Shown in pieces: positions 20,382-32,621 of a stretch of 36,472 nt of DNA. Both the position numbers and the translations under genes were made by a program. Every line of letters begins with the position of its first letter. The first letter of the stretch is position 1. The stretch is from Ignavibacteria bacterium (GTDB taxonomy: Bacteria > Bacteroidota > Ignavibacteria > Ignavibacteriales > SURF-24), in assembly GCA_025612375.1 (NCBI GenBank), contig JAAXKN010000026.1, forward strand, positions 28,682 through 65,153. Reading direction: 5' to 3'. The notes beneath the pieces are model-generated. The model was not told the origin of the DNA, searched no databases, and was given only the letters and a program-made list of their open reading frames with translations.

Positions 20382-20846
20382 TTGATTAAAAATCTTACTG
20401 TAGTTAGTGAAGGGAAAATTAAGGTTAACAAGAGGCTTTTACACCGCCTTGTTGGACTTTTAACAGAAGAAATGGAGCTTTCCATTGTCTCCCTTCCAAT
20501 TAATTTTTTAACCCCTGAGACTATCTGGAACATTAATAAACAGTATCTCGGGCATGATTATTCGACCGATATCATTACATTTAACTATTCGGGGGATAAC
20601 AAAGACTTAGACGGAGAAATACTTATTTCTGTTGCCGATGCGGCAGATAACGCTAAAAGATATGAATGTTCACTGGATAATGAGTTGTTGAGACTGGTCA
20701 TTCATGGTGTTTTGCACCTGATGGGTTACGATGACATTGAGATTGCTGACAGAAAAAAAATGAAGAAGCTCGAAAACTTCTTAACTAACAAATTTGAATA
20801 TCTCGTTCATAACGACAGACTTATTTATGACAGCCAAAATAGTTGA
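20382..20846 (+). CDS. ybeY: Endoribonuclease / rRNA maturation factor YbeY
   Basis: YbeY is a zinc-dependent single-strand ribonuclease needed for 16S rRNA 3' end maturation and ribosome quality control. The 154-residue product has the conserved STDIITFNYS and DGEILISV segments. The metal site is HGVLHLMGYDD at residues 108-118. The third ligand, His in most YbeY proteins, is Asp here (D118), as I recall for some Bacteroidota sequences. The start is TTG with no strong ribosome binding site. Its end overlaps the DUF494 gene by 20 bases. Confidence 0.94.
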   Translation: MIKNLTVVSEGKIKVNKRLLHRLVGLLTEEMELSIVSLPINFLTPETIWNINKQYLGHDYSTDIITFNYSGDNKDLDGEILISVADAADNAKRYECSLDNELLRLVIHGVLHLMGYDDIEIADRKKMKKLENFLTNKFEYLVHNDRLIYDSQNS

Positions 20847-21285
20847 AGTAATAGCTCAAATTCTTGATGCGCTCAGCAAAAACTCTTCTTTGGAAGAAGT
20901 GAACAGAAAATTAAGCCATAATAAGAATTTTGATAAACAAACTGTAAGCACGGCTTTCAGCTGGATATACGACAAAAAGCTTACGAATAATTATTTTAAT
21001 AATTCAATTAAAAATAAAGAAATTAAAAGTTTTAGATTCCTGACCGAAGAGGAAAAAGAAATTCTGGGAGTTGAAAATTACGACTATATTACTCATTTGA
21101 TAAATGTCGGTTTACTAAAACTCACTGATCTGGATAATATCCTGGAGCAGGTTACTTTATTTCCGGGTGATAAAATTTCTAAGGAAGAAATCAATTGGCT
21201 GATCCTGTTTTCTTTAGTTGATTTAAATGAAAGTATCCCCCCTGGAAGCAGAGTCCTTTTATATTCTTCGGATACAATTAACTAA
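20827..21285 (+). CDS. smg: DUF494 / Smg-like protein
   Basis: The 152-residue product matches the Smg family pattern: an N-terminal helical part (KIVEVIAQILDAL), a central FRFLTEEEKEILG, and a C-terminal half with YDYITHLINVGLLKLTDLDNIL. Its molecular role is unknown. In Escherichia coli smg lies beside genes for DprA-like and topoisomerase zinc-ribbon proteins, and here it directly precedes topA, so the association is conserved. The start at 20827 lies inside the end of ybeY; a longer frame from 20794 is less likely. The topA start is 14 bases downstream. Confidence 0.75.
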   Translation: MTAKIVEVIAQILDALSKNSSLEEVNRKLSHNKNFDKQTVSTAFSWIYDKKLTNNYFNNSIKNKEIKSFRFLTEEEKEILGVENYDYITHLINVGLLKLTDLDNILEQVTLFPGDKISKEEINWLILFSLVDLNESIPPGSRVLLYSSDTIN

Positions 21286-23657: not shown

Positions 23658-24536
23658 ATGGAAATAAAAAGGGTTATAGATGACTTCCTGGAAAACCTGC
23701 AGAAACTCCGCAGGTTTTCCGGAAATACGGTTAAATCCTACACTCAGGATCTTGAGCAGTTTTGTGAATTCTGCCATTCTCTTCATGTTACCGATGTGCT
23801 TCAGGTAAATGAAAAACTGGTAAGACGTTTTGTTATCAGCATCAATGTCAATAACGAATACGAAAAAAGCACAGTCTCAAGAAAACTCTCGGCAGTAAGA
23901 AGCCTCTTCAACTACGCCCTGAGGAATAATCTTGTCCCCTCAAACCCCTTGAAAAGGATATCCAACCCGCAGGTAAAAAGAAAACTTCCGGAAGTCGTTC
24001 CCATGGCCGTTATGGATGAAATATCCGAAAAGCTCGGCAGGGAAGACAGGCTTCTTCATAACGCCGTTATGGAAGTTCTCTACAGCTGCGCTCTTCGTGT
24101 CAGTGAACTCTGCAGCCTTAACCTGGGTGATATAGATTTCGAGAAGGGCTCGGTCAGGGTTTTAGGCAAGGGATCTAAAACAAGGATTGTCCCCATTGGA
24201 AAGGAATCCCTTCAAGTCGTAAAGAAGTATCTTGATTCACGGGGTGCTTTAGAGTATAATTATCCAATATTCGTAACTTCAAGGAGCAAAAGGATTTATC
24301 CGCGTTACGTTTATAGGATAGTTAACAAATATCTGAGTGAGGAAACGGAGCTTAAGAAAAAAAGCCCCCATGTCTTAAGGCATACGGCGGCAACCCATAT
24401 GCTTGATAACGGAGCAGATCTGCTTGCCGTCAAGGAAATATTGGGTCACGAAAGTCTATCAACCACTCAAATCTACACGCACGTCTCCATTGAGCGGTTG
24501 AAGAACATATATAAACAAGCTCATCCTAAATCTTAA
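23658..24536 (+). CDS. xerC: Tyrosine recombinase XerC/XerD
   Basis: This recombinase resolves chromosome dimers at dif. The N-terminal SAM-like domain covers about residues 1-95 (RRFSGNTVKSYTQDL). The catalytic residues are all present: R147, K171, H238, R241, H264 and the nucleophile Y273 in STTQIYTHV. At 292 residues it is the length of chromosomal XerC/D, with no integrase extension, and it sits in a housekeeping operon, so a phage or transposon origin is unlikely. XerC versus XerD cannot be decided alone; xerC next to hpf is common in this phylum. Confidence 0.9.
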   Translation: MEIKRVIDDFLENLQKLRRFSGNTVKSYTQDLEQFCEFCHSLHVTDVLQVNEKLVRRFVISINVNNEYEKSTVSRKLSAVRSLFNYALRNNLVPSNPLKRISNPQVKRKLPEVVPMAVMDEISEKLGREDRLLHNAVMEVLYSCALRVSELCSLNLGDIDFEKGSVRVLGKGSKTRIVPIGKESLQVVKKYLDSRGALEYNYPIFVTSRSKRIYPRYVYRIVNKYLSEETELKKKSPHVLRHTAATHMLDNGADLLAVKEILGHESLSTTQIYTHVSIERLKNIYKQAHPKS

Positions 24537-29451: not shown

Positions 29452-30300
29452 ATGGCAATTGAGAAAGTTTCTGTAGTCGGATCCGGAACAATGGGTAACG
29501 GAATAGCCCACGTCTTTGCATTAAAAGGATTTGACGTCTCTTTAATTGACGTTAAAGATGAATTTGTAAAGAAAGGAATGGACACCATTTCACGCAATAT
29601 GGACCGCCAGGTAACGAAAGGATCCATAACAGGCGAAGAAAAAGAAGCTGCCTTGGGCCGCATTAAGCCTGTAGTCGACGTTGAAAACACTCCTGTGGAC
29701 TCAGACCTCGTTATTGAAGCTGTTTATGAGAATAAGGAAGCTAAGTTATCTGTTTTTAATAAGTTAAGCAGTATTATGAAGCCTGAATGTATCTTTGCCT
29801 CAAATACTTCGTCAATATCTATAACAGAGCTTTCAAACGGGCACCGTCCGGAGAAATTTATAGGCATGCACTTTATGAACCCGGTCCCGATGATGCAGCT
29901 CGTAGAGATTATACGCGGTTACTCTACGACAGACGAGACATTCCAGGCCGTAAAGGATCTTGCGCTTAAACTGGGCAAGGTGCCGGTCGAAGTGTTCGAT
30001 TATCCCGGATTTATATCCAACAGGGTCTTAATGCCAATGATAAATGAGGCCATATTTGCCTTATATGAGGGCGTAGCCTCAAAAGAAGACATAGACACCG
30101 TTATGAAGCTGGGGATGAATCATCCCATGGGGCCTTTGACACTGGCAGATTTCATCGGCCTCGACGTATGCCTGGCCATAATGAACGTTCTTTATGACGG
30201 CTTTAACGACAGCAAATACCGCCCATGTCCATTGCTTAAAAAGATGGTAGCCGCCAACAAACTCGGCCGCAAAACAGGCGAAGGCTTCTTTAAATATTAA
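29452..30300 (+). CDS. 3-hydroxyacyl-CoA (3-hydroxybutyryl-CoA) dehydrogenase
   Basis: This NAD(P)-dependent enzyme interconverts 3-hydroxyacyl-CoA and 3-oxoacyl-CoA. The Rossmann motif [10 protein letters not shown] starts at residue 10. The catalytic region reads [12 protein letters not shown] and [16 protein letters not shown], with the active-site His in the second. The C-terminal domain holds [16 protein letters not shown] and ends in [11 protein letters not shown]. The 282-residue length is that of short, single-domain hydroxybutyryl-CoA dehydrogenases (Hbd/PaaH type). A good AGAGGG precedes the ATG. No butyrate or beta-oxidation neighbour is present, so chain length preference is open. 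Confidence 0.93.
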
Positions 30301-30310
30301 GAACACCATC

Positions 30311-30336
30311 GGTGTCAGGAACCATTTCCTGACACC
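30311..30336. repeat. REP-like perfect hairpin after the hydroxyacyl-CoA dehydrogenase gene
   Basis: GGTGTCAGGAA (30311-30321), a CCAT loop and TTCCTGACACC (30326-30336) form an 11-base-pair perfect stem 10 bases after the stop codon. No T-run follows, so it is not a standard terminator. It may be an mRNA 3' end structure or a dispersed extragenic palindrome. Confidence 0.6.
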
Positions 30337-30356
30337 AATCGATCGCTGGAGGTGGC

Positions 30357-30411
30357 TTAACACTTAACAGGATTTGTTAATAAAGTTAACATTTTTTTTG
30401 TTAAGTGTTAA
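30357..30411. repeat. 13-base perfect inverted repeat with nested inner repeat
   Basis: TTAACACTTAACA (30357-30369) is exactly complementary in reverse to 30399-30411. Inside the spacer, TGTTAA (30375-30380) and TTAACA (30386-30391) make a second palindrome. An A/T-only spacer with eight T lies before the right arm. It may be a protein binding site or the structured end of the mobile segment. Confidence 0.55.
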
Positions 30412-30562
30412 AATGGGGATTTTGAGAGAAAATGATAATTTGGGCTAAATACGAAGAAAATGACATAAGCCACTCCCCTCAAATCAAAAATCAAAAAGTC
30501 GTATAATGTATATTACGTAAACTTGGATGTAAACTAATTTTTTGCAAAATACCCTTTTGAGT

Positions 30563-31564
30563 TTAAAAGGACATAAACCTAATATACTTACGATCCAGTC
30601 TATTATTCTCTGTTGTATCTCTATAAATTAGATCGCGCATTTTATAAAGAGATTCTTTTTTAGTAATTCTTAACTCATAAGATCTGTGATTAGGATAAAC
30701 TTTGGTCACTTGCAGATCATAAGACAAAAGTCTATGACGTAATTGGTAAATAAATTCTTTTGAGCCGGAAACAAATTTTGCCCTGCCATAACCATTATCT
30801 TTGTAAATGGAACCATCACCATCCCATAGGCCCCGGATGAAGTGCCATTCGAATTCCTCCGGAACTTGCGGATATTGAATCGTTAGACTTTTATTTGGTG
30901 TAACACCTAAACAAAGTAGATCATGGTACATTTCGTCATTATTAAGTGTAAGTATATAGAGTGAATCTATTATTCCATTATTTTTCCTGGCACTTATTCT
31001 GGCGTTAGTGCCCATAATGGACCTGATCTTTTCCAACAACTCCGGCTCTTTCTGAGAAATACTTAATCTGGAAGTATTGCACGTTGTTTTAAAGCCTTCA
31101 CAATTAAACTTCGCCTCCGAAATATTGCCATCTGTAAATACTACTCCCAGTACATATGCCATATTTGCCGTCCAAGATTTAAAAAATGAAGTATCATAAA
31201 CAACATGCTGCAACACAAGACCTGTTTTTGATGCGATAATTTTCTTTCTCAATAATGCCAGTTGTCTAGCGGCACTTTTTTCTCTAAATTGTATACCCAA
31301 TTCCTTAATGCGTTTATTAACATATTGCCTGCTTCCACCCACGATCATAGCAATATCTGCCATAGACTTTTGTTCAATTACATATAATTGGTTCAAATAA
31401 TCAAATGTCAACACATCTTTAATGCTTCCACGGACTTGAGATTTTCTGAATTTGTGCCTTTTTTCTGTCCGTTTTGCATAGCAGCGCACACATAAACCAA
31501 GAGCCTTATGGGGAAAGTCAGTAGAATGACATTCCCGACACTGATTAAATTTCATTGCCCACAT
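30563..31564 (-). CDS. Free-standing LAGLIDADG homing endonuclease with zinc ribbon and HTH
   Basis: The 333-residue protein is a two-motif LAGLIDADG nuclease. The first motif is VLGVVFTDG (138-146, catalytic D145) and the second is IRGLWDGDG (243-251, D250); both acidic residues are intact. Ahead of the nuclease domain lie a Cys4 zinc ribbon (C9, C12, C25, C28) followed by YAKR, and a helix-turn-helix near 66-91 (MADIAMIVGGSRQYVNKRIK), both likely DNA-binding. The gene looks more A/T-rich in codon choice than its neighbours, a sign of transfer. It is not inside an intron or intein, since both flanking genes are complete. The start could be this ATG or the one three codons on; no strong ribosome binding site is seen. 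Enzymes of this kind cut a long site and copy themselves into it. Confidence 0.85.
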   Translation of the reverse strand: MWAMKFNQCRECHSTDFPHKALGLCVRCYAKRTEKRHKFRKSQVRGSIKDVLTFDYLNQLYVIEQKSMADIAMIVGGSRQYVNKRIKELGIQFREKSAARQLALLRKKIIASKTGLVLQHVVYDTSFFKSWTANMAYVLGVVFTDGNISEAKFNCEGFKTTCNTSRLSISQKEPELLEKIRSIMGTNARISARKNNGIIDSLYILTLNNDEMYHDLLCLGVTPNKSLTIQYPQVPEEFEWHFIRGLWDGDGSIYKDNGYGRAKFVSGSKEFIYQLRHRLLSYDLQVTKVYPNHRSYELRITKKESLYKMRDLIYRDTTENNRLDRKYIRFMSF

Positions 31565-31688: not shown

Positions 31689-32621
31689 CTACTTTGCAAA
31701 TATGAACTTCTGTCTGGTGGGATTTAGGCCTGCTTCAACTTCTGTAACTGTGCGCGAGATGACTTCACCATCGGCGTGAATATAAACCGGCAGAGCCGTC
31801 TTTATACGCACGCTTTTGAACTTCCTTATCTCAATACCCGGTATGTCCCCGTGCTTTCCCCGTATCAGCTTCTGAAAGTCGCGTATAATCTGCCACACCG
31901 GCAGGCTTCCTATCAAACAGGCATCCAGATACCCGTCGTCCACCTCTGCCTCAGGATTCACTTTAAGGCCTCCGCCATAGGTCTTCCCGTTACTGACCGC
32001 AATTAAAAGCTTCCTGCCGGCTGCCTTATAACCGTCGTCAAACTCAGCCTCCGCGTCCATTACCTGGTACATAAATAAGGCCTGAATAACGGCTGAAATG
32101 TAAAGGGGTAACCCCTTAAAATACTTGTTCTTTTTAATCTGGTCTGAAACAATTGCATCAAAGCCGATCCCGGCGCTGTTGAGGAACCTTCTATAAATAA
32201 GATTCACCATCTTATTTTCTTTATACTTCAGGTATCCCGTATCCACTTCCCGCACAACACGGCTTTCCAGTATTACCCTTAAAGCCTCTTCCGGGTCCTT
32301 GCTTATACCCGCCGTCCTGGCAAAATCATTTCCTGAGCCTATCGGAATAACCCCAATAATGTTCTCAACGGAGCCGTCAAGCCCGTTAATAATTTCATTT
32401 AGTGTCCCGTCGCCTCCGGCAGCGCAGATCGTCTTAAAATCCTTCCTGTAAAGCTTTACGAGCTCTGTGGCGTGATGTGCTCTTTCGGTTTGTACTATTT
32501 CTGTATGGTTTGAATGACTGGCAAGAATGCGTGAGAGTTGAGGCAGGATCTTCCTGCCTCTTCCTTTACCCGCTTCAGGGTTAATTATAAAAAGTGTTTT
32601 CTCTTTCAAAACTTTTAGCAC
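31689..32621 (-). CDS. Diacylglycerol kinase family lipid kinase
   Basis: This YegS/DagK-type enzyme phosphorylates a lipid hydroxyl such as diacylglycerol with ATP. The N-terminus holds IINPEAGKGRG and the nucleotide signature GGDGTLNEIING, with GGDGT at 69-73. IGSGNDFARTAGI follows, and the C-terminal beta-sandwich includes NGKTYGGGLKVNPEAEVDDGYLDACLI. At 310 residues it is complete. The start is GTG without a clear ribosome binding site; a TTG four codons downstream is possible. It lies 24 bases after ftsY and may be in its operon; pgsA, also a phospholipid gene, is just upstream. Confidence 0.92.
   Translation of the reverse strand: MLKVLKEKTLFIINPEAGKGRGRKILPQLSRILASHSNHTEIVQTERAHHATELVKLYRKDFKTICAAGGDGTLNEIINGLDGSVENIIGVIPIGSGNDFARTAGISKDPEEALRVILESRVVREVDTGYLKYKENKMVNLIYRRFLNSAGIGFDAIVSDQIKKNKYFKGLPLYISAVIQALFMYQVMDAEAEFDDGYKAAGRKLLIAVSNGKTYGGGLKVNPEAEVDDGYLDACLIGSLPVWQIIRDFQKLIRGKHGDIPGIEIRKFKSVRIKTALPVYIHADGEVISRTVTEVEAGLNPTRQKFIFAK

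Follow-up and report, generated by a model that had tools for sequence, protein, structure and literature searches.

The window, a stretch of 36,472 nucleotides from an Ignavibacteria bacterium, carries a LAGLIDADG homing endonuclease gene that stands by itself beside a site identified from its sequence as dif, and this dif has a base in its XerD arm that occurs in no other dif it was compared with. The protein and its locus were confirmed and the family is already known, while the place beside a uniquely altered dif is new and was seen in one genome. I tentatively propose that in this genome the gene was inserted between dif and the lipid kinase gene dagK and spreads by 'intronless homing' at dif, a reading that I regard as nearly as likely to hold as to fail. 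The features on which the argument draws are collected in Table 1.

Table 1. Coordinates of the endonuclease gene, its predicted domains, dif and neighbouring genes (positions within the window).
Feature	Position	Strand	Basis or remark
xerC-like gene, one of two recombinases expected on dif	23658..24536	+	TIGR02224 9.5e-91, just below curated cut-off
3-hydroxyacyl-CoA dehydrogenase (3HCDH), left neighbour, complete	29452..30300	+	
dif, AAGTCGTATAA-TGTATA-TTACGTAAACT	30496..30523	+	XerD arm C at 30516; T in 134/134 other sites
LAGLIDADG homing endonuclease gene	30563..31564	-	intact ORF, 333 aa; Pfam, PHROG, conservation, fold
LAGLIDADG motif 2 FIRGLWDGDG, catalytic D250	30812..30841	-	sequence, alignment
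LAGLIDADG motif 1 YVLGVVFTDG, catalytic D145	31127..31156	-	sequence, alignment
Helix-turn-helix (HTH), residues 54-88	31301..31405	-	predicted helices H54-63, H68-75, H79-88; phrog_4645 match from residue 63
CxxC-x12-CxxC putative zinc ribbon, residues 9-28	31481..31540	-	sequence motif; low-confidence in model
Diacylglycerol/lipid kinase (DagK), right neighbour, complete	31689..32621	-	

The assignment of the 333-residue protein to the LAGLIDADG homing endonucleases, by its two motifs, acidic residues and modelled fold, is solid. It matched Pfam LAGLIDADG_3 over the family cut-off (E 2.1e-13) and the phage family phrog_4645, annotated 'endonuclease', over residues 63-330 (E 6e-35), a match that spans both the HTH and the nuclease. 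D145 and D250 were each conserved at at least 90% in an alignment of 50 relatives, and the view of the sequence-only reading that both LAGLIDADG motifs are intact was upheld. The AlphaFold model (mean pLDDT 87) aligned over approximately residues 129-333 with I-DmoI, I-Tsp061I, and PI-PfuI at Z 17-20, and the family profile of the endonuclease found I-Tsp061I in the PDB (1.9e-14); the profile and structure searches that the same reading had proposed thus place the protein among LAGLIDADG nucleases. It had also described a Cys4 ribbon and a HTH. The HTH stood, as it is predicted with high confidence in the model, but the ribbon did so at motif level only: the pattern C9-x2-C12-x12-C25-x2-C28 is present in the sequence, the model is of low confidence there (pLDDT about 48-68), a profile search of the protein gave no zinc-finger match to this segment, and the zinc ribbon is best called putative. 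Site-specific DNA cutting by the protein would be expected by analogy.

The nearest matches to the endonuclease were phage and plasmid proteins of ~30% identity. Peptide-pattern searches with the single protein found no relative, while a pattern made from its conserved core found many phage relatives. Several relatives with readable loci lay in or between parts of the genes for DNA polymerase I, DNA polymerase III alpha, and recA, and a Rfam group I intron adjoined two of them, which served as a positive control for the intron search. Related members of the family aim at coding genes, often via introns, and not at intergenic sites, which weighs against homing at dif, and the best dif-like sequence near the viral relatives reached 17/21, with no convincing site. 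The PHROG 4645 / LAGLIDADG_3 phage endonucleases (I-MsaII of Staphylococcus phage MSA6, and JENST_137 of Brevibacillus phage Jenst) share the HTH and the two-motif domain with the window protein at roughly 20-30% identity. They are, however, found in or between pieces of polA, dnaE, and recA, some with group I introns, whereas the window gene lies on a bacterial chromosome, beside dif and without an intron, and its N-terminal Cys4 was not seen in the relatives checked. I-DmoI and I-Tsp061I resemble the window protein in their fold, a single chain with two LAGLIDADG motifs (Z about 17), but are archaeal, intron-encoded, and only 17-21% identical to it.

The flanking genes 3HCDH and dagK converge on dif, and both are complete, as had been read from the sequence at the outset. 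A group I intron around the endonuclease gene was considered and rejected, as a search extended to E 10 gave no match and there is no split host gene. The endonuclease gene is free-standing: it lies outside any intron or intein and is optional between conserved genes. In a relative of the same genus (G001) and in two others (G002 and G003), 3HCDH and dagK face each other at a distance of 46-300 bp with no endonuclease between them, while in G004 both are found at the ends of contigs. By coordinates, the interval from dif to dagK measures ~95 bp in G001, 9 bp in G002, and 36 bp in G003, against 1,165 bp here, where the endonuclease gene fills it with its stop codon 39 bp from the XerD arm. The sequence-only reading had called for a comparison of this junction, and relatives in the family that keep this gene order were found to be without the gene, so it is not a constant resident. 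The flanks beyond dif could not be aligned even within the genus (pairwise, against the same-genus relative); they are too diverged for the exact insertion point to be fixed, and dif is consequently the only shared landmark there for a site-specific enzyme.

The endonuclease gene was horizontally acquired and is foreign in composition, with a GC content of 35.8% and a GC3 of 31% compared with 44-47% and 49-51% in the two flanking genes. The composition check bore out the earlier remark that the gene is A/T-richer than its surroundings (GC3 31% against about 50%). It is a recent or rare acquisition and not a conserved resident, because neither its own genome, nor 58 relatives, nor the other genomes of a 395-genome phylum sample gave a further match, and the phrog_4645 profile had matches in only 2/395 of these genomes. 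Its absence in relatives, its foreign composition, and the retention of both Asp residues agree with the initial description of a free-standing, intergenic, and probably selfish gene.

Across G001-G004, one conserved sequence follows 3HCDH, TTGTCCGATAA-TGTATA-TTATGTAAACT or a close variant, whose architecture and core are those of dif of E. coli and Bacillus subtilis. Of 59 genomes of the order, 58 had the 21-base core, 56 of them in a single copy, with few matches to a reversed control pattern; in the class it was present in 133/294 genomes. A genome search showed a single dif in the source genome. The xerC-like gene lies 6 kb from the site, and an xerD over cut-off lies on another contig. 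By its core architecture, its near-universal single copy in the order, and the presence of xerC-like and xerD genes, 30496-30523 is identified as dif, the XerCD chromosome-dimer resolution site. It has the 28 bp of this XerCD site (PMC3025954), an ATAA-N6-TTATG core, and one copy per genome, and deviates at position 21. The dif-dagK locus would sit at a putative chromosome terminus, to which the convergence of the flanking genes on dif points only indirectly. The target had at first been given as an 'intergenic or still unknown site', of which the intergenic part held, but the site is identifiable as the dif locus. Nothing else in the space between 3HCDH and dagK is strongly conserved, and dif is single-copy in 56/59 genomes, which makes it the obvious shared target. 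At the other 134 dif sites of the class, the ORFs lying within 1.5-3 kb included no member of the endonuclease family, and this lack of recurrence limits confidence in homing at dif. A duplicated XerD half-site after dif (GGATGTAAACT, 9/11) was discarded as not significant, with scores of at least 9 within 60 bp at 4/135 loci.

The XerD arm is nearly frozen across the 135 dif sites compared. Position 4 of the arm (30516, dif position 21) is C instead of T here, giving TTACGT for TTATGT, while T was found in all 134 others. As the survey tolerated two mismatches, a variant of this kind would have shown at most sites. Among 84,980 species genomes, a pattern with the C allele matched twice, once within a long ORF of an archaeon and once in a Ruminococcaceae MAG with no LAGLIDADG gene in the stretch examined. 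The one genome with an altered XerD arm is also the one with an adjoining homing gene; this is 1 in 135 by rank and was noticed post hoc, and the co-occurrence of a changed dif and a homing gene is suggestive. The C at 30516 may be a single-base assembly error.

In phages, it is established that free-standing homing endonucleases between conserved genes cut adjoining sequence in genomes without them, and that repair after such cutting copies the homing gene in (PMC6083498; PMC2988022); the usual homing target is a functionally critical sequence (PMC2988022). Applied to the window, the enzyme would cut dif, or dif together with its right flank, in a chromosome that lacks the endonuclease gene, which would then be copied in when the break is repaired from a chromosome that has it. 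The resident dif would be spared because the insertion parts it from its flank and/or through the T-to-C change in the XerD arm, and the changed dif may thus be a resistant allele. That dif is the target, that it is cut, and that the base change protects it are suggested by analogy from a single genome, and the fuller proposal, in which dif is the homing target and the resident copy was mutated at an otherwise invariant XerD-arm base to escape cleavage, seems possible but doubtful to me. T4 SegF, SegG, and F-CphI are like the window gene in being optional genes between conserved genes (PMC6083498, PMC2988022), and they cut nearby conserved sequence in genomes without the gene, whereas cutting by the window protein is putative; they are unlike it in being of the GIY-YIG or Endo VII type, phage-borne, and directed at coding genes.

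The serious, and chief, rival to homing at dif is a chance landing, in which the gene came as a passenger of phage or other foreign DNA that recombined at the terminus, in an intergenic place tolerant of insertion, with its target elsewhere (e.g., in a phage gene) and the dif change due to drift. Such an event is conceivable though on balance doubtful: phages carry many members of the family, which are for the most part linked to replication genes of phages or plasmids, there is one case only, and the space between convergent genes tolerates insertion. A random hit within 100 bp of dif would, however, fall on ~4e-5 of the 5.2 Mb genome, or have a probability of ~3e-4 when the count is confined to the intergenic part (assumed 12%), and the sole altered XerD arm among 135 is in that same genome, although both arguments are post hoc. 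Alternatively, the gene might have entered on an integrative element that makes use of XerCD (IMEX), recombined at dif, and left a hybrid dif whose XerD arm is foreign, which I consider improbable. The dif-like sites of IMEX have XerD arms that diverge (PMC5357621), it is the XerD arm that holds the altered base here, and XerC-like and XerD genes are present; CTXphi and GGI are likewise foreign DNA that abuts dif with an altered XerD arm. Yet an IMEX needs two bounding dif-like sites, while the best in the interval reached 17/28, which other parts of the window reached as well, and the genome has a single dif; this lack of a second dif disfavours an IMEX origin, and, unlike at CTXphi and GGI, no other element genes are present, the endonuclease being the only phage or plasmid gene.

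The sequence-only reading had offered a domesticated regulator as an alternative to a selfish element, and the protein could in principle be a domesticated DNA-binding protein (a WhiA-like regulator or a terminus-associated factor) that acts at dif with no cutting. WhiA indeed has the same fold (Z about 16), and the extra HTH, the Cys4 motif, and the place beside dif would suit such a role, but both catalytic Asp residues are intact at positions at least 90% conserved in the family, the composition is foreign, and the gene is kept in no relative, which makes domestication very unlikely. Similarly, a group I intron could have decayed in its ribozyme and left only the endonuclease gene behind, as relatives are intron-encoded (the Rfam matches beside two of them, and I-MsaII inside rec); given the failed intron search, two complete neighbours, and no host gene to split, there is hardly any likelihood of this.

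With its short length, wide conservation, and single copy in each chromosome, dif would suit a selfish endonuclease ideally as an address. No report linking LAGLIDADG enzymes with dif or dimer resolution was found in the literature searched, which mostly excluded subscription papers. If homing at dif is true, a homing gene exploits a cis-acting maintenance site and not a coding gene, and a selfish gene parasitises a near-universal, single-copy site of chromosomal maintenance. The escape mutation would then be visible, may come at a cost to dimer resolution, and a natural dif-specific nuclease would be on offer. If it is false, what remains is an ordinary endonuclease of a phage family, left stranded at the terminus.

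Several minor observations were made along the way. Two genomes had more than one dif-like sequence: two dif-like cores in opposite orientation lie 4 bp apart in one of them, a relative (L159; G590:C23, 96681-96726), and two dif-like sites lie 12 kb apart on one contig of the other (L162 and L163; G597:C3, 26653 and 38656), possibly a Xer-integrated element. An inverted repeat left of dif was considered as a part of the endonuclease gene and rejected, as it is a REP-like hairpin (GTGTCAGGAACCATTTCCTGACACC, 30308-30339, between 3HCDH and dif) that recurs in the genome with eight more partial matches. Just left of dif, at 30348-30476, nested inverted repeats (TTAACACTTAACA / TGTTAAGTGTTAA inside GGAGGTGGCTTA / TAAGCCACTCCCC) were found, possibly a small palindromic element, of which none was seen in the sister species. 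In G001, a truncated tRNA-like sequence (GTGGCGCAGCCCGGTAGCGTACTTG...GTTCAAGGGGTCGCGGGTT; L027) lies between dif and 3HCDH and is perhaps an old integration scar. Finally, a DUF494-like gene at 20827-21285, just before topA and the xerC-like gene, has a low GC content of 32% and a GC3 of 32%.
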